Positions 2,141 through 12,952 of a DNA stretch of 55,281 nt are shown here, piece by piece. The notes beneath the pieces are model-generated. The model did no database searches, was not told the DNA's origin, and worked only from the letters and a program-made list of their open reading frames with translations. Positions within the stretch are counted from its first letter, which is position 1; each line of letters begins with the position of its first letter. This stretch comes from Terriglobia bacterium (lineage in GTDB: Bacteria; Acidobacteriota; Terriglobia; Terriglobales; SCQP01): positions 1-55,281 of the forward strand of contig JAJPKR010000059.1 of assembly GCA_021323595.1 (NCBI GenBank), read 5' to 3'. The position numbers and the translations under genes are program-made.

Positions 2141-3613
2141 TTATTTCAGGCTGCGGAGGTAGGCGACGAGGGCATTGAGGTCGGCATCGGCGCCGGTGAA
2201 GGCGGGCATGCCGGTCTTCGCGGCCTTGGCGCTGGGATGCCGCAGGAAAGCGGCGATCTGGTCGGCGCTCATGCGGGCGCCGATGCCCGCGAGGGCCGGC
2301 GCGAGCGGCGTGCCGCGGCCTCCCGCCCCATGGCAGGCGATGCAGGCACGCGAGGTGTATAGCGCTTGGCCCCGCGCCAGAATGTCGGCGGCCGGCGCCG
2401 CCGCGGACGCGCCGGCGGCGGCGGGCGCGGCGCCGAGCAGCATCGGATGAAACGGCTCGCGCATGTAGTCGCGCATCTGCTGCTCTTGCACCGCCAGGGC
2501 CGCCGCCACCGCGGGCTGGCGCTGATCCTGCACGTGGCTGAGAATGCCCAGGCCGACGACCGCCGCTAACACCAAGCCGAAGCTGCCCATGGCCACCGGC
2601 CGGCGCAGCGGATGCCGCTCCAGCCGCCGATCGAGAAACGGCGTCAAGACGAACAGCCCGATCACGATCCCCGGCACGATCACGATGCCGATCAGCCCGC
2701 TGCGGCCGGGCCAAAACTTCAGCCATTCGAAGGCGGGCAGGTAATACCATTCCGGCCGGGGAATGAAGGTGGTGTTGGCGGGATCGGCGCGCGGCCCCAG
2801 CGGCACCGGGAAGAAATACGACAACGCCCCGAGCACGGCCACCAGCAGGAGCGCGAACAGGAGATCCATCACCAACTGCCGGGGATAGAAATTCTCCGTC
2901 GCCAGCCGCGGCGCCAGCGGGTCCTCGTGGATCGGTCCCGCCGCGCCCGCCTTGCGAAACAGCAAGACGTGCAATCCGATGAACAGGAAAATGCCGGCGG
3001 GAATGAAGAACACGTGCAAGACGAAGAAGCGCGAAATCGTCAGCGTTCCCATCTGGCTGCCGCCGCGCAGCAGCGCCTTGATCGCGCCGCCCACCAGCGG
3101 CACCTCGCCCATGATGTTGGTGCCGACCGCGGTCGCGAAATACGAGCGCTGATCCCATGGCAGCAGGTAACCGGTGAACGCCATGCCCAGCATCAATGCG
3201 AACAGGACGCAGCCGGAAAGCCAGATCAGTTCCCGGCGCCCTTTGTACGAGCCGTAGGTGAAGGTCTGGATGATGTGCAGCAGAAGCAGCACCACGGCAG
3301 CGCTGGCGCCGTAGGAGTGCAGGCTGCGCAAGAAAGAACCGGCGGAGACGACCTTCACGATGTAGGCCAGGCTGATGTGCGCGTCGTTGGCCGCCGGCAC
3401 GTAGTAAATCGCGAGAAAAACGCCCGTGATGACCTGCGACAGGAAGATAAAGAGCAGGCCGGAGCCGAAGATGTAGGCCCAGCGCGCGCCGCCGGGAATC
3501 GGCTCGTCGAGCGCCGCGTGTAAGGCGGCGTCAATGCCGGTGCGGCGGTCGAGCCAGCGCCAGAAGCCGCTGCGCCCGGCTGGCGGCGGCGCGGATTGGA
3601 TTTCCGTCGCCAC
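2141..3613 (-). CDS. Cytochrome b fused to a C-terminal cytochrome c domain
   Basis: 490 residues; quinol-oxidising subunit of a bc-type complex in the cytoplasmic membrane. Haem b ligands are likely His99 and His113 in one helix paired with His200 and His215. The Qo-site PEWY motif is at 287-290. After the last membrane helix (about 340-360) and an Ala/Pro linker (about 393-410) comes a class I cytochrome c domain with CIACH at 424-428 and a likely axial Met469 (TGMP). The whole b plus subunit IV part is one polypeptide, and the c1 role is apparently supplied by the fused domain. It begins 6 bases after the Rieske stop, so the two are one transcription unit. Confidence 0.95.
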   Translation of the reverse strand: MATEIQSAPPPAGRSGFWRWLDRRTGIDAALHAALDEPIPGGARWAYIFGSGLLFIFLSQVITGVFLAIYYVPAANDAHISLAYIVKVVSAGSFLRSLHSYGASAAVVLLLLHIIQTFTYGSYKGRRELIWLSGCVLFALMLGMAFTGYLLPWDQRSYFATAVGTNIMGEVPLVGGAIKALLRGGSQMGTLTISRFFVLHVFFIPAGIFLFIGLHVLLFRKAGAAGPIHEDPLAPRLATENFYPRQLVMDLLFALLLVAVLGALSYFFPVPLGPRADPANTTFIPRPEWYYLPAFEWLKFWPGRSGLIGIVIVPGIVIGLFVLTPFLDRRLERHPLRRPVAMGSFGLVLAAVVGLGILSHVQDQRQPAVAAALAVQEQQMRDYMREPFHPMLLGAAPAAAGASAAAPAADILARGQALYTSRACIACHGAGGRGTPLAPALAGIGARMSADQIAAFLRHPSAKAAKTGMPAFTGADADLNALVAYLRSLK

Positions 3614-3619
3614 GGCCCC

Positions 3620-4171
3620 TCAATCCACCGCTTCCTGCGATGCCAGCAGCTGCCGGTAGAAAACGAAGCGGCAGTAGAGATGGCCGTCCTGAATGCGGTG
3701 CGGCAGCGAATCCATGTCGCGCGCCGGCGGACCGGCGAGGCGATGCCCGTCGAGCGCGAACGTCCCGCCATGGCACGGGCAGACGAAGCGTTGTTGATCC
3801 CTACGCCACTGCACGCTGCAGCCCAAATGCGGGCAAACCGAGGAGACCACTTTGGGCTGGCCGTGCGAATCCGGGATCACGTACACCATCTGCTGCGTGA
3901 TCGCGCGTTCCCAGCCGTCCGGCTGCTCGATCGTGACCTGCCGCGCGACGGGGTGATCGAGCCGCGTGAAGCTCTCGAGCGGCCCCAGATCGGACCACCC
4001 TTCCTGCCCGGCGCGGCGCCGCAGCGGAAACAGCGCCAGCCGCGCCAGCGGAATCGAAAGCAGCGCCGCCATGCTGGCCGTGCCGACCGCGATCAAGGCG
4101 CCTAAAAATGACCTGCGTCCGCCCCTTTCAGAAGATTCGGACGCAGGTGAAGTAGGAGCCGTCGTGTTCAT
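3620..4171 (-). CDS. Rieske iron-sulfur protein, Tat-exported
   Basis: 183 residues; carries electrons from quinol at the Qo site of the bc complex to cytochrome c. A twin-arginine motif (GGRRSFLGAL, about 17-26) precedes a hydrophobic anchor at about 24-50. Cluster-binding boxes are CPHLGC (113-118) and CPCHGG (131-136), giving ligands Cys113, His115, Cys131 and His134, with Cys118 and Cys133 as the disulfide pair. It lies between the cytochrome-porin gene (34-base gap) and cytochrome b (6-base gap), which fits a three-gene electron-transfer operon. Confidence 0.95.
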   Translation of the reverse strand: MNTTAPTSPASESSERGGRRSFLGALIAVGTASMAALLSIPLARLALFPLRRRAGQEGWSDLGPLESFTRLDHPVARQVTIEQPDGWERAITQQMVYVIPDSHGQPKVVSSVCPHLGCSVQWRRDQQRFVCPCHGGTFALDGHRLAGPPARDMDSLPHRIQDGHLYCRFVFYRQLLASQEAVD

Positions 4172-4205
4172 GGCGTAGATGCCCTCCTCCGTTTCGGCCG
4201 GGCCG

Positions 4206-5555
4206 CTAAAAGACGAACCAGAGCAGCAGATAAAGGGTATTGTTGTCGCGGGCGTTGCGGCCGGCGCCGTCGTAATTGGTGCTGGCGCCGTTGAACTTCC
4301 AGTAATAGGTGTACTGCGCGAGCAACTGGATGTTTTGCACCGGCCAATAGCCCGCTTGCGCGATCAAGCCGCTGTTGGCGGGGCTGCCGTTGGCGCTGCC
4401 GCTGACCGGGCCGGCGCCGTAGAGCAGCGGGTCGGAGGTTCCGCTGTCGTTGAACCAGCCCACGCCTCCGGAATAGCGGTTGCCGAAGTGATAAACGCTA
4501 TCCAGGCGAACGGCGTTCAGATGATGCTTGGCGGTGCTGGCCAGCCCGGCCGCGACCGAGCCGAGCAGATCTGAGTTTTCGCGGATGTAATTGCCATGCA
4601 CCGTGATCATGTCGCCGCCGTGGGGAATCTCGAGCTGAAAATCGGCGGCGGGATCGGTGAAGGTGTCGAGCGGGCCGGTGACGGCGTTCGGGAAGGAAGC
4701 CACGTGCATGCCGTAGGTGCCGACTTCGAGCGCGGCATGCCCCACGTTCTGCTGCCACGCCAGCCGCCAATAGGGCGCGGCGTTGTGGATGTTGAAGGCG
4801 AAATCCGTGCCGGTGGGCGGCTCGGGCGTAATCAAATGGGCCGAGCGGTACACGGTGAAGTCGCCGTAGAGATGGTCATTCCACATCGCGTACGCGCCTG
4901 CGCCGGCTACATCGCCGGCCAGCGTCCCGGAAAGAACCGTAACCGCGTTCGGACCTGGCGCCGCGTCCGAGGATGCCCAGGGATAACCCCACGCCGGCGT
5001 ATCGTTCCAAAGATCCTCGACGGTGGGGTTGTTGTTGACGTCCAATCCGTATACGACTTCCTTGCCCAGCAGCTTGCGGCGGTTGGCGTAGCGGATATCG
5101 GTGTTGTCCATGATGAAGTGGCCGTCCGCCGCGGTGTAGGTCACCTGGAAGAAGCTGCCGATGTGCTTTGCCAAAGCGCCGGAAAGGAAAAGACTCAGAG
5201 CCTGCGGAAATTCGACGTTCGCGTTTTGCGTGCCCGGCTGCGCCTTCTGCGTCAGCGTGTCCGCGATCTGAAACATCGCCGAAAGCGGCAGCTCCTGGCT
5301 GATATTCAGGCCCGCGGTATTGGCCTTGGGCGTGACCTGGATTTCCTTCATCCCGGTCAGCGTGTAGCCGTTGAGCTTGAAGGCGCGGCCAAAAGCGGTG
5401 AGCTCGGGGAAGGTGATGTGGCAGGTGCTGCACGGCAACCCGGTTTGGCGCGTAAAGCTGGGAACCGCCCACGCCGGGAAGCCAAGAGACAGGAAGACCA
5501 AGAAAACTCCGGCAGTTGCAAGCGAACGATGGTGCACGATTCGACTCCAGGACAT
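4206..5555 (-). CDS. Cyc2-like fused cytochrome-porin (outer membrane)
   Basis: 449 residues from the ATG at 5555, chosen because a clean signal peptide follows (hydrophobic about 13-27, cleavage after AWA at 30). An upstream in-frame ATG at 5675 would add 40 unlikely residues. The mature protein starts with one haem motif, PSFTRQTGLPCSTCH (Cys42, Cys45, His46), then FPELTAFGRAFKLNGY. The rest is about 380 residues of alternating polar and aromatic strands ending in LYLLLWFVF, typical of an outer-membrane barrel. One N-terminal haem plus barrel is the Cyc2 layout (outer-membrane iron oxidase). It is first in an operon with Rieske and cytochrome b-c. Homologues of unknown substrate exist, so iron oxidation is inference. 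Confidence 0.7.
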   Translation of the reverse strand: MSWSRIVHHRSLATAGVFLVFLSLGFPAWAVPSFTRQTGLPCSTCHITFPELTAFGRAFKLNGYTLTGMKEIQVTPKANTAGLNISQELPLSAMFQIADTLTQKAQPGTQNANVEFPQALSLFLSGALAKHIGSFFQVTYTAADGHFIMDNTDIRYANRRKLLGKEVVYGLDVNNNPTVEDLWNDTPAWGYPWASSDAAPGPNAVTVLSGTLAGDVAGAGAYAMWNDHLYGDFTVYRSAHLITPEPPTGTDFAFNIHNAAPYWRLAWQQNVGHAALEVGTYGMHVASFPNAVTGPLDTFTDPAADFQLEIPHGGDMITVHGNYIRENSDLLGSVAAGLASTAKHHLNAVRLDSVYHFGNRYSGGVGWFNDSGTSDPLLYGAGPVSGSANGSPANSGLIAQAGYWPVQNIQLLAQYTYYWKFNGASTNYDGAGRNARDNNTLYLLLWFVF

Positions 5556-6606: not shown

Positions 6607-7053
6607 TCAGCCGGCGCGGAGTTCGCTACCTGTCTGGCGCAAGGTGGCGCGCAGCGCGATCGGCGTGGCGGCGAGCGCTTTCGAAACCGGGCAAGTCTCC
6701 TTGGCGGTTTCCGCAACTTTCTGAAAACTCGCTTCGTCCATGCCGCCGGCCTCGACCTCGGTCACCAGTTCGATCGCGGAGATCGCATATCCGTCGCCCG
6801 ACGGGCCGAAGTGCACCTGGGCCCGCGTGGTCACCGTGTGCGGCGTTGCGCCGGCTTGGGAAAGCGCCGCCGCCAGAGCCATCGAAAAGCAGCCGGCGTG
6901 GGCGGCGCCGAGCAGTTCTTCCGGATTGACGCCCGGGCCCTCTTCCATGCGAGACCGAAAGGAAAATGCGCCTTGATAGGCGTCGAAGCACAGGACGCCA
7001 TGGCCGGCGGTGAGATTGCCCTGCCATTGCGCGGAGGCGGAGCGTACAGGCAT
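6607..7053 (-). CDS. OsmC/Ohr-family peroxiredoxin
   Basis: 148 residues from the ATG at 7053 (MPVRSASAQW). OsmC-type proteins reduce organic hydroperoxides in the cytosol using two conserved cysteines. Here these are Cys55 in AAHAGCFSMAL and Cys121 in ETCPVSKAL. The family pattern GVNPEELLGAAHAGC is intact, as is the strand pair around VHFGPSGDGYAI. The frame stays open far upstream, but that part is Arg/Gly-rich read-through of the neighbouring protease gene in another frame, so I reject it. Confidence 0.92.
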   Translation of the reverse strand: MPVRSASAQWQGNLTAGHGVLCFDAYQGAFSFRSRMEEGPGVNPEELLGAAHAGCFSMALAAALSQAGATPHTVTTRAQVHFGPSGDGYAISAIELVTEVEAGGMDEASFQKVAETAKETCPVSKALAATPIALRATLRQTGSELRAG

Positions 7054-9088: not shown

Positions 9089-12000
9089 TTATTGCACCGT
9101 CAGCGATAGCGATGCCGAATGGCTGTCGGCGCCGGAAGTGCCGGTGACGGTCAAAGTATAAGTGCCCGCGGGCGTGCCCGGGTTCGGCGGCGGAGCCGAC
9201 GACGAGGACGAGCCGCCGCCGCAGCCGCCGGCGAGCAGCAGCGCGCCCACGAGCGCCGTCCAGGCCAGGCGCCGCTTCCAGGCGCGGTGGCGGCGGGGAC
9301 GCACCGCCATCCCGAGGGCGGCCAGAGCCAGCGCCAAGAAGATCAACGGCGGCCAGCGCGAGTCCGGACTGTTCCAGGGCGCGAGCGCGCCGGGCGCGGT
9401 CGTGGTCACGGTGACCGTGGCGGCGGTGCCGCTCGCCGTCGGCGTCACGCTCGCCGGGCTGACCGAGCAAGCCGCTTCCGCCGGCGCGCCCGAGCAGCTC
9501 ACGGCCACGGCGCCGTTGAAGCCGCTCTCGGCGGTGAGGGTGAGATTGTAAGTCGCGCTTTGTCCCGGGGTGATCGAAGCGGAACTAGAAGCGGCGGCGA
9601 GGCTGAAATCTTCGACCGTCACCGTGCCCGACGCGGCATGACTCAGCCCGCCGGAACTGGCGTTCACGGTGATGGTGTTGGCGCCGGGCTGAAGCGCGGC
9701 GGCGGCGACGGTGACCGTCGCCGCGCCGCCGGCGGTGATGCTGGCGGGTGATGCCGTGCAGCCGGAAGCGGGCGCGGCGCAGCTCAGGCTCAAGGTGCCG
9801 CCGAAGCCGGCGATGCCGCTCGAGCTCAGCGCCAGCGTCGCCTGATTGCCGGCGACGACCGGGTTGGCGGGAGGGGCCAGGGCAATCGAGAAGTCCTGCA
9901 CGGTCACTTGCGCGCTCGCCGTCTCGGTCGCGCCATTGGCGGCGCCCGACACGGTTACCGTGTTGGCGCCGTCGCTCAGGCCGGCGGCTGCCACCGTCAC
10001 CGTTGCCGAGCCGCCGCCGGAAATGCTGGCGGGGCTGACCGAGCAGCCGCTCGCGGGCGCGGTGCAGGTCAGCGCGATCGTGCCGGTGAAGCCGCTGCCG
10101 GCCTGCGCCGTGACGCTGAACTGCGCGCCGGCGCCGGCCAGCGCGGTCACGGTTGCCGGCGTAGTGGCGAGCGTGAACGGCAGGCCCGTGATGGTGACCG
10201 AAAGGGTTTGCGTGCTGATCTGATCGGTAGCGGCGATGGAGACGGTGGTGGTGCCCAGCGCGATCGCGCTGCCCGCGATCGTGACGGTCACGGGCGTGCC
10301 GGGCGCGGCGGTCGCGGGCGAAATGCTGCATCCGCTGGCGGGAGCCGCGCAAGAATAGGCGATGGTCGCGGTTTCGCCATTCGCGCCGCTCGCGGTCACG
10401 GTGAAGCTGGCCGCGGTGCCCGCCGCCACGCTGAGGGTGGTCGGCGAAGCCGCTAACGTGAAGCTCGGCGTCGGCAGCGGCGCGATCTCCCACAACCCGC
10501 GGCCGTGGGTCGCCGCCACGAGCTGCCGCGAACTCCAGGTTTTCGGCGAGATGCTCAACTGCAGCACGGCGGCGTCGGGCAGACCGCCGCCGACCTGCAT
10601 CCATTGTTCGTTGGCCGCGCCGCCGTCGGTCGCGGCGAAGACGCCCACGTCGCTGGCCACATAGATGTCGTTGTTGGGGCCGAGCGGGTCGATCAGAATC
10701 CAATTCACCGGCGCGTCGGGCAGATTGCCGGTGATATCGGTCCAGGTTGCGCCGCCGTCAGTGGTTTTGAAGACGTGTCCTCCGCCGAAGCCCTGCACGC
10801 CGAGATAGACGACGCTGGGATCCACCGGATTGATGGCGACGGAGCTGATCGGCCCGCCGCTCATATTCAGCGGGGCGGTCATGCTCGTCCAGGTGGGACT
10901 GCCGCTCATCAGATTCGAGGTCATCTCGAGGCCGCCGTTTAGCGTCGCGAACCAGGCGATGTTGGCGTTGTTGGGATCGGCGGCGACCGCGGTGATGGGG
11001 GTGGTGGCGCAGCCGAAATTGGTCACCTTGGTCCACACCAGGCTGCCGGGGTTGTTCGGGTTGGCGGGGCCGAGCCACATATTGCAAACGCCGACCAAAA
11101 GCTGGGAGGGCGTGGTGCCGGATCCCGGGATCAGCGTGTACGGCACGTAGAACATGCCGGATTCCGGTATGACGGTGTTATCCGCCGCCTGGGCCAGGGC
11201 GCCGGTGCTGGTGTCGTACATCATGATGTCCGCGCCGTTGGGGTATTCGAGCCAATAGTCGCTGGGCGCGGTGGGATCGCTGGCGGTGAAGCCGCCGTCG
11301 CCGCCGAAGAATTGGCTCCAGGCTAGGCCGGGGCCGCTGTTCACCGACGTGCCGTTGTCTTGCGCGCCGCCAAACCAGGCGCCTGATTTCTGCGAATCCG
11401 GGGAAGCGCTTTGGAACTGGATATTGCCCAGCGTCGCGTTCAGGTTCATCCAGCTCGTGCCGCCGTTGGTCGTGGCCCATGCGCCGCCGTCGTTGCCGAT
11501 GAACCAGGTGGTCGCGTTGAAGATCGCGATGGCGTGCTGGTCGGGATGAACAAGATTGGCGCCGGAAGCGTAACCGTCGGTGATGTCAGTCCAAGCGGTG
11601 CTCAGGCCCGTGGTCGTCATCGCCGGCACGCTCGCCGCGCTCCAAAGATCGATGCCGCCCACGAGCAAGCCGCTGCCGCCCGCCGGGGCCGCGATGTCTT
11701 GGTCGTAGTCTCCCTGGCAAGAGGTAACGCCGCCGCCGCTCTCGCAGTAGAGATTCGTGAAGCCGCCGCCCGGCGCGGTCGAGACGTCGGGCATGGGGAG
11801 CGGGTGCCAGGTGGTCCCGCCGTCGGTGGATTCGGCCAGCCCGGTGTCGCAATTCGTCGAACCGCCGGTGCAGGGCGTCGGCGTCGCGGGGCCGCCGGTG
11901 GCATCGCTCAGTAGCGCATAAAGCGTGCCGTTGCGCGCGGCCAGCGAGGCCCGCGAGAAATCGCCGGCGGGGCTCGCGCCGACAAAGGGCGATGCGAGGA

Positions 12001-12952
12001 TCGTCCAGGACGCGCCTTGGTTGGCGGACTTGAAGATTCCCACATTGCCGGCCGCCGCGTAATAGGTCTTGGCGGTCGCGTCATAGATCAGATCGGTGTC
12101 GTTGGCCTGAAGGACGAGGGACCAAGTCTTGCCGGAGTCCGTGGAGCGGTATAGGCCCGTCGGCCCCGCGGCAGCGCCGGCCTCGCAGCAAACGTCGGAG
12201 GAGGTGGTTGCGAGGACGACACTGGGCGTGGCCGGATCGAAGAGGATGCGCGAGAATCCCTGGCCCACGAACGATTCGGCGCCGCTGTCAGCGGTGGTGA
12301 TCGAGGTCCAAGTGGCGCCGCCGTCGGTGGATTCGAGCAAGCCTTGGCCGTAGTAGGAGTCGCCGCTGCCGTTGGGTTCGCCGGTCCCGACCAGCAAGTG
12401 CGCGGGATTCGAGGGATCGACGGCAATCGCGCCGACCGCCAGGGTGGGCTGCGAGTCGGTCAGCGGCGTGCATGTGGGCGAGGCGCCGAGCGCGCTAGTG
12501 CACTTCCACAGGCCGCCGAAGGCCGCGCCGATGTAAATGGTGTTGCCGGTGGCATCGCTCGGATCGAGGGCGATCGCCGTCACCCGGCCGGAGACGTTGC
12601 CATAGGTCGTGGGCACGAGCGCGTCAGGAGTGGTGTTGAGCGGGCGCGGCCCGAGTTCGGTCCAGGCGCCGCTGCCGGTGGGAGTGAATCCGGTGACTCC
12701 GGGTTGCGCCGTGGCGCGCGCCGCGGCTCGCGGCGCCAGCGCCACGCGCGCGCGCATCGCCAGGGCCCGCCACAGGTGCGCGGCGGCGGGCAACGAGTCG
12801 GGTGATCGGCGGCCGCGCAAGAACCAGGCCTCGCGCGCGCTGGGGTTATCGGCGGGCTGTGCCTTTTCCTGGCCGCGGAGCGCGGCGGGCAGCAGGCATG
12901 CGGCGGCTAGGCAAACGGCGGCCGCCAAAATGCGGACGTGGCGCAACTTCAT
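9089..12952 (-). CDS. Giant secreted Asp-box beta-propeller with Ig-like repeats
   Basis: 1287 residues. The start ATG is preceded by AGGAGG with ideal spacing, and the first 27 residues are a signal peptide. Residues about 90-830 contain repeated Asp-boxes (STDGGATW, STDSGKTW, STDGGTTW, TTDGGATW), as in sialidase/VPS10-type propellers. Then come four Ig-like repeats of about 90 residues, each with an APASGCSxSPA core. The last 100 residues carry a hydrophobic helix (PPLIFLALALAALGMAV), a basic stretch, a second hydrophobic stretch ending in LLLAGGCGGGSSSSS, and a short strand-rich tail. The Asp-box part may bind or cleave glycans or simply be a scaffold; no catalytic set is evident. Confidence 0.85.
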   Translation of the reverse strand: MKLRHVRILAAAVCLAAACLLPAALRGQEKAQPADNPSAREAWFLRGRRSPDSLPAAAHLWRALAMRARVALAPRAAARATAQPGVTGFTPTGSGAWTELGPRPLNTTPDALVPTTYGNVSGRVTAIALDPSDATGNTIYIGAAFGGLWKCTSALGASPTCTPLTDSQPTLAVGAIAVDPSNPAHLLVGTGEPNGSGDSYYGQGLLESTDGGATWTSITTADSGAESFVGQGFSRILFDPATPSVVLATTSSDVCCEAGAAAGPTGLYRSTDSGKTWSLVLQANDTDLIYDATAKTYYAAAGNVGIFKSANQGASWTILASPFVGASPAGDFSRASLAARNGTLYALLSDATGGPATPTPCTGGSTNCDTGLAESTDGGTTWHPLPMPDVSTAPGGGFTNLYCESGGGVTSCQGDYDQDIAAPAGGSGLLVGGIDLWSAASVPAMTTTGLSTAWTDITDGYASGANLVHPDQHAIAIFNATTWFIGNDGGAWATTNGGTSWMNLNATLGNIQFQSASPDSQKSGAWFGGAQDNGTSVNSGPGLAWSQFFGGDGGFTASDPTAPSDYWLEYPNGADIMMYDTSTGALAQAADNTVIPESGMFYVPYTLIPGSGTTPSQLLVGVCNMWLGPANPNNPGSLVWTKVTNFGCATTPITAVAADPNNANIAWFATLNGGLEMTSNLMSGSPTWTSMTAPLNMSGGPISSVAINPVDPSVVYLGVQGFGGGHVFKTTDGGATWTDITGNLPDAPVNWILIDPLGPNNDIYVASDVGVFAATDGGAANEQWMQVGGGLPDAAVLQLSISPKTWSSRQLVAATHGRGLWEIAPLPTPSFTLAASPTTLSVAAGTAASFTVTASGANGETATIAYSCAAPASGCSISPATAAPGTPVTVTIAGSAIALGTTTVSIAATDQISTQTLSVTITGLPFTLATTPATVTALAGAGAQFSVTAQAGSGFTGTIALTCTAPASGCSVSPASISGGGSATVTVAAAGLSDGANTVTVSGAANGATETASAQVTVQDFSIALAPPANPVVAGNQATLALSSSGIAGFGGTLSLSCAAPASGCTASPASITAGGAATVTVAAAALQPGANTITVNASSGGLSHAASGTVTVEDFSLAAASSSASITPGQSATYNLTLTAESGFNGAVAVSCSGAPAEAACSVSPASVTPTASGTAATVTVTTTAPGALAPWNSPDSRWPPLIFLALALAALGMAVRPRRHRAWKRRLAWTALVGALLLAGGCGGGSSSSSAPPPNPGTPAGTYTLTVTGTSGADSHSASLSLTVQ

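Follow-up and report, generated by a model that had tools for sequence, protein, structure and literature searches.

A Cyc2-family cytochrome-porin encoded in front of a Rieske/cytochrome b-c module in Acidobacteriota: a putative link between extracellular iron and the quinone pool

In the Fe(II) oxidizers described so far, soluble carriers are the sole connection between the outer-membrane oxidase and complex III, whose genes belong to separate operons. Contig JAJPKR010000059.1 of the Terriglobia bacterium assembly GCA_021323595.1 (Acidobacteriota), analyzed over positions 1 to 55,281 (all 55,281 nucleotides, hereafter the window), harbors a cyc2-like cytochrome-porin gene directly upstream of the genes for a Rieske protein and a cytochrome b-c fusion, which raises the question whether the three encode one electron line and in which direction electrons would pass along it. 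Leaving direction aside, it is likely that they do encode a single line leading from an outer-membrane Cyc2 to the quinone pool; as to direction, outward flow with reduction of Fe(III) appears at least as likely as inward flow from Fe(II). The genome to which the window belongs (G000) comprises 3.55 Mb in 65 contigs and is 97.6% complete.

The first gene encodes a protein of 449 residues with its sole CxxCH motif at residues 42-46, following a signal peptide that ends in FPAWA, and its heme site at the mature N-terminus reads AVPSFTRQTGLPCSTCH..FPEL. No match was found in Pfam, NCBIfam or the PDB sequences, and PDB sequence searches with the protein and its profile returned nothing relevant. 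Members of the Cyc2 family are recognized by a single CxxCH, the consensus AXPXFAR[Q/K][T/Y]..CXXCH..PXL of Keffer et al. (PMC8406198), a length of at least 365 residues and a 16-strand barrel resembling OprO/OprP. Acidithiobacillus ferrooxidans Cyc2, Mariprofundus Cyc2-PV1 and Leptospirillum Cyt572 share with the window protein a signal peptide, one N-terminal heme, the pattern AxPxF-x-RQT..CxxCH..PxL, a 16-strand barrel and more than 365 residues. The signature AVPSFTRQT, contained in AVPSFTRQTGLPCSTCHITFPEL, agrees with the consensus at every named position except for the alanine of FAR, which is present in the described Cyc2 proteins but replaced by threonine here. Among 64 readable homologs this position is occupied by alanine in 57 and by serine in 6, threonine being confined to the window protein. 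The strict expression AXPXFAR[Q/K][T/Y] fits 32 of 65 homologs and misses many because tyrosine often stands for phenylalanine, while the PXL following CxxCH (CSTCHITFPEL in the window protein) is present in all 65.

An AlphaFold2 model calculated from a 53-sequence alignment displays 16 long barrel strands (mean predicted local distance difference test score, pLDDT, 85.1; predicted template modeling score, pTM, 0.82). Its best structural matches in the PDB are the 16-strand porins OmpC/OmpF, OprO and OprP with Z scores of about 22 (OprO, 4rjx, 22.2; OprP, 2o4v, 22.1; OmpC/OmpF similar), the VIA-align match list leaving other barrel families compatible with the model as well. Keffer et al. likewise reported OprO/OprP templates and 16 strands for Cyc2-PV1 (PMC8406198). 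The structure prediction called for by the first-pass annotation, which had described one heme at the mature N-terminus and a barrel-like remainder, thus bears out the barrel part of that description. An ordinary porin with a chance CxxCH is ruled out, as the 53 aligned homologs show little or no variation at the heme and signature residues. By motif and model the window protein is a Cyc2-family cytochrome-porin, with putative heme seating and redox activity.

The other two genes encode the core of a bc complex. The Rieske protein scores 45.9 bits against the Pfam Rieske family (cut-off 20.3), and the cytochrome b-c fusion 157.6 bits against Cytochrome_B, in addition to matches to Cytochrom_B_C and a C-terminal Cytochrom_C, all above cut-off. 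All features by which such complexes are recognized are present: the Rieske cluster ligands Cys113, His115, Cys131 and His134 are invariant in 18 Rieske sequences, and the four histidines His99, His113, His200 and His215 as well as the PEWY motif of the Qo site are invariant in 13 cytochrome b sequences. A degenerate bc complex, a case known from Acetobacteraceae (PMC10715153), is ruled out by these intact ligands and PEWY. To judge from the alignments, the residues on which quinol oxidation depends are retained and both electron directions would be mechanistically possible. In box II of the window Rieske protein (CPCHGGTF), glycine and phenylalanine replace the serine and tyrosine whose hydroxyl groups raise the potential of Rieske clusters, the phenylalanine being almost universal across the compared Rieske set. 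The window genome contains genes of the futalosine menaquinone pathway, two of them of the MqnA/MqnD type. Together, in the light of established work on Rieske proteins, a box II devoid of serine and tyrosine and these genes suggest a menaquinone-linked complex of lower potential. The module has the four histidines, PEWY and the Rieske CxH..CxxH in common with bc1/b6f complexes in which a cytochrome c is fused or linked to cytochrome b. It differs from them in its C-terminal extension, which bears one to about five c-type heme motifs depending on the genome, and in a dedicated neighborhood with outer-membrane conduits.

This neighborhood is not peculiar to the window. The same bc-c module is found next to cyc2 at 12 loci besides that of the window (L004, L007, L028, L038, L045 and L065, and in genomes G009, G014, G042, G047, G055 and G057), so that the search for the same gene order in related genomes proposed by the first-pass annotation turned out positive and an arrangement unique to the window or an assembly artifact is ruled out. 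Across these loci cyc2 is placed either first or last relative to the module, and a cytochrome c or MarR-type gene is sometimes found in between. On a tree of 65 Cyc2 sequences, 5 changes of the bc-c label are required, compared to 11.8 in shuffles, and well-supported branches force at least 4 of the 5; the paired members fall into roughly five distinct parts of the tree. Among 396 genomes of the phylum, Cyc2 is present in 10, the bc-c module in 22 and both in 5 (0.56 expected, P = 7e-5), with the two adjacent in all five. The grouping exceeds chance.

In 12 further loci (L044:7902-16022, L050, L036 and others) cyc2 is found near a b6-type complex consisting of a Rieske protein, cytochrome b6, subunit IV and an octaheme cytochrome. 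These clusters also contain a cupredoxin gene, and in most cases cyc2 is separated from the bc genes by one for an NAD(P)-binding Fe-S flavoprotein, a hint that electrons from Cyc2 may be connected to NAD(P).

The position upstream of the bc module can be taken by other conduits. At five loci with no adjacent cyc2 (L105-L108 and L110; genomes G025, G035, G027, G059 and G003), a decaheme cytochrome and a protein of 668-796 residues are encoded directly upstream of the Rieske/cytochrome b-c genes. The cytochromes of L105, L106, L108 and L110 score above the TIGR03508 cut-off (DmsE/MtrA-type), and that of L107 contains 10 CxxCH motifs. The decaheme cytochrome of L106 (G035) matches PDB chain 6r2q_A, which we take to be MtrA from the MtrCAB structure, though its deposited name is wrong. 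The accompanying 668-796-residue proteins end in an aromatic residue, like outer-membrane barrels, and no MtrC-like surface cytochrome was recognized by heme-motif annotation of the decaheme loci shown. In G005 the slot is filled by a related 822-residue protein and a mono-heme cytochrome. In G309, which belongs to another family, a 690-residue tri-heme protein (L114:2396-4465) that starts like Cyc2 (PAWSRKYNAQCTLCHTTYPRLN) and whose barrel-like C-terminal part has phenylalanine as its last residue is followed by a mono-heme cytochrome, the Rieske protein and cytochrome b-c; judged from its sequence, it is possibly an undescribed cytochrome-porin fusion. The window genome itself yields no TIGR03508 match. 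The bc module thus looks like a plug-in unit that may be joined to Cyc2, to an MtrA-type decaheme cytochrome with a large putative barrel, or to a candidate tri-heme cytochrome-barrel fusion. Taken together, the recurrent pairing with cyc2, the exchange of conduits and the b6-type neighbors support the view that an outer-membrane conduit has its own dedicated connection to the quinone pool.

The order and spacing of the three genes given in the first-pass annotation were reproduced exactly by translation and coordinates (Table 1), with all three reading frames uninterrupted (449, 183 and 490 residues). The sequence GGAGGAGG is located just 5′ of the Rieske ATG. A reading frame at 2064-1501, downstream of the genes, was read as DUF1801/YdhG-like, while upstream of cyc2 a long stretch without a convincing gene precedes an OsmC-like gene. 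With these flanks the operon appears to be limited to cyc2, Rieske and cytochrome b-c, which probably share one transcript. The scan for a sigma-70-like promoter found none and was uninformative, and no RNA families were detected within the window.

Table 1. Features of the cyc2-Rieske-cytochrome b-c locus in the window.
Feature	Position	Strand	Description
cyc2-like gene	4206..5555	(-)	449 aa; signal peptide, single-heme N-terminal segment AVPSFTRQTGLPCSTCHITFPEL, predicted 16-strand porin barrel, last residue Phe
Rieske [2Fe-2S] protein	3620..4171	(-)	183 aa; boxes CPHLGC and CPCHGGTF; N-terminal RRSFLGAL membrane/Tat-like anchor
Cytochrome b-c fusion	2141..3613	(-)	490 aa, GTG start; b6 and subunit IV fused, four His heme ligands, PEWY, C-terminal mono-heme cytochrome c domain
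cyc2-Rieske gap	4172..4205	(-)	34 bases, holds ribosome-binding-like GGAGGAGG
Rieske-cytochrome b-c gap	3614..3619	(-)	6 bases

The OsmC-like peroxiredoxin gene upstream of the cyc2 operon (6607-7000, minus strand) has a counterpart at L045:7142-7654, possibly by coincidence. Further upstream, 9089-12952 (minus strand) encodes a 1287-residue secreted protein that was read as having BNR/sortilin-like and Ig-like repeats.

A scan of genomes gave 62 relatives of the window protein, mostly from Acidobacteriota metagenome-assembled genomes (MAGs; 50-63% identity) and, at about 41%, from Proteobacteria MAGs; full-length relatives number 56. Every relative that covers the N-terminus has the heme site and a close form of the Cyc2 motif. 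Many of the homologs come from MAG series that we believe to be acid mine drainage surveys. A cupredoxin-like gene is adjacent to cyc2 in 31 of the 62 loci; in the window genome a homologous cupredoxin is located on another contig. Searches of plasmids with tblastn found homologs in Caballeronia, Acidiphilium, Methylocystis and Paraburkholderia (30-40% identity over at least 90% of the length), which adjoin genes for high-potential iron-sulfur proteins (HiPIP) or c-type cytochromes in the plasmid records examined. Two equal matches (33.6% identity, equal length), CP084173.1:49689-50942 and NC_009469.1:1384-2637, are situated on plasmids whose records name Acidithiobacillus ferrooxidans and Acidiphilium cryptum as the organisms, which suggests exchange between acidophiles or a mixed culture. 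Diverged proteins of 450-570 residues (L087-L096), whose match to Cyc2 is restricted to its N-terminus (E 1e-12 to 1e-5), likely form a further Cyc2-like subfamily; for several of them, genes for a b6-type cytochrome b are located at a distance of about 5 kb.

In the open-access literature surveyed, the cyc2 genes described are accompanied by cyc1, cupredoxin and cox genes or by small cytochromes c, with bc1 in a separate pet operon, whereas in the window cyc2 directly precedes Rieske and cytochrome b-c. The rus operon type (cyc2-cyc1-cup-coxBACD-rus) is not matched, since the window operon holds its three genes only and the oxidases are encoded on other contigs. In A. ferrooxidans, the petI/petII (cycA-sdrA-petABC) complexes are likewise proposed to act between the Cyc2 chain and the quinone pool, uphill during Fe(II) oxidation or downhill during Fe(III) reduction; there, however, pet forms a separate operon with split cytochromes b and c1, while the cytochrome b of the window carries a fused cytochrome c domain and is encoded beside cyc2. 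The MtrAB, MtoAB and PioAB conduits, whose MtrA-type cytochromes take the slot of cyc2 in the relatives described above, consist of two proteins and ten hemes, in contrast to the one protein and one heme of Cyc2, and the quinone partners described for them in that literature are CymA, CbcL/MtoC and ImcH rather than a bc complex.

In the proposed line, the cytochrome-porin would exchange single electrons with a soluble extracellular partner at its one heme. Family membership suggests iron as the substrate, by analogy with characterized Cyc2 proteins, and the partner would most likely be Fe(II)/Fe(III). The fused cytochrome c domain, probably together with a periplasmic carrier encoded elsewhere, would connect Cyc2 to the bc complex, and this dedicated, catalytically complete Rieske/cytochrome b complex would in turn exchange electrons with the menaquinone pool. 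The genes, motifs, predicted barrel, bc ligands and recurrent pairing are observed, while co-transcription, the iron substrate and an exchange of electrons between Cyc2 and the bc complex are inferred.

Several observations weigh against a dedicated line. Next to the genes of the window protein's closest Cyc2 relatives there is a cupredoxin gene but no bc gene; about half of the genomes with the bc-c type have no adjacent cyc2, and no recognized conduit is found beside the bc-c module in L111, L112 and L113. The bc module is hence not an exclusive partner of outer-membrane conduits. In the window genome, a second bc-type complex (contig C51; L003) and two haem-copper oxidases on other contigs, one with a cbb3-like neighborhood, give the quinone pool other outlets. 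The 668-796-residue proteins are predicted to be barrels from their C-termini and position, and a PDB search with the profile of these MtrB-like proteins returned no MtrB and nothing relevant.

With regard to direction, outward flow from menaquinol to Fe(III) is given an even chance, and inward flow, i.e. Fe(II) oxidation with the bc complex run uphill, a distinctly smaller one; what is left falls to both directions or to neither. An exclusively outward line, in which the bc complex oxidizes menaquinol and passes electrons via the cytochrome c domain and Cyc2 to soluble Fe(III) in an energy-conserving respiration, is a serious contender though somewhat short of even. It runs downhill from menaquinol, suits the low-potential type of Rieske protein and agrees with the MtrA-type conduits joined to the bc module in relatives. 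Fe(III) reduction at low oxygen is known from the acidophilic Acidobacteria Acidobacterium capsulatum and Acidicapsa ferrireducens, and in A. ferrooxidans a proposed route to Fe(III) leads from the quinone pool via bc1 and Cyc2 (PMC8790237). On the other hand, no Cyc2 is biochemically established as a physiological Fe(III) reductase in the open-access literature surveyed, MtrA-type conduits run both ways (PMC10734462), and the decaheme loci show no recognizable MtrC-like partner, as described above.

An exclusively inward line is rather less likely. Here Cyc2 would oxidize Fe(II) and most electrons would reach a cytochrome oxidase, while proton motive force would drive the bc complex in reverse towards quinone and NAD(P)H, as modeled on petI of A. 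ferrooxidans. Characterized Cyc2 proteins are indeed Fe(II) oxidases (PMC8406198), the window genome has haem-copper oxidases, the cupredoxin-like genes beside cyc2 relatives resemble the situation of rusticyanin in the rus operon (PMC10654088), and the b6-type clusters encode a flavoprotein that binds NAD(P) between cyc2 and bc. Yet no RuBisCO was found in the window genome, which leaves little evident need for much reverse electron flow; menaquinone and the box II composition suggest a low-potential complex and with it a very steep uphill step from acidic Fe(II), and no oxidase gene is present inside the operon. The missing RuBisCO, menaquinone, the probably low-potential Rieske protein and the operon without oxidase all argue against inward flow as the main role. 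The first-pass annotation had coupled the Cyc2-like porin to the bc complex on one transcript and had suggested that electrons are taken in from outside, for example from Fe(II): the coupling, on one probable transcript, is supported by the motif, the model, the recurrence and the repeated association, while uptake from Fe(II) does not prevail over the reverse, given the futalosine menaquinone genes, the missing RuBisCO and a box II without serine and tyrosine.

It is improbable that Cyc2 merely feeds a shared periplasmic cytochrome pool for an oxidase, its adjacency to the bc genes reflecting a common low-oxygen or metal regulon with no direct transfer. The cupredoxin-linked, bc-free cyc2 genes nearest to that of the window and the unlinked bc-c modules in genomes that have cyc2 would fit such a regulon, but the pairing arose more than once on the Cyc2 tree, in several distinct parts of it, and with either gene order, and in other genomes an MtrA-type decaheme conduit occupies the equivalent slot beside the same bc module; shared regulation alone leaves a preference for outer-membrane conduits unexplained. 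Least probable is a cytochrome-porin serving another soluble one-electron partner (copper, manganese or an organic shuttle), in view of the Cyc2 signature common to all members and the presumed mine-drainage provenance of many homologs. What speaks for such a partner is that the iron role of this clade is drawn by analogy, and that Cluster 3, in which the Cyc2 reported earlier from one Acidobacteriota MAG was placed (PMC9671151), is the functionally least certain of the family (PMC8406198).

Cyc2, bc1-linked iron chains and MtrAB conduits are each already known. Neither a cyc2 that shares an operon with bc genes nor a bc module with exchangeable conduits was found reported in open-access papers, which is weak evidence, most subscription journals being outside the search. 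On the preferred reading, a dedicated line between Cyc2 and the quinone pool, the operon resembles an inbuilt wire that would connect extracellular iron with that pool. The wider proposal of a modular Acidobacteriota unit, in which a conserved Rieske/cytochrome b-c(n) module with interchangeable conduits would carry out proton-motive and probably reversible extracellular iron respiration, stays just below an even chance. If true, bc complexes tied genetically to conduits would constitute a distinct proton-motive entry or exit point for extracellular electrons, and iron respiration or oxidation would be assigned to the Acidobacteriota, a phylum abundant in mine waters and acidic soils. Conduits exchanged in front of one module would then amount to a natural experiment on which parts set substrate and direction.

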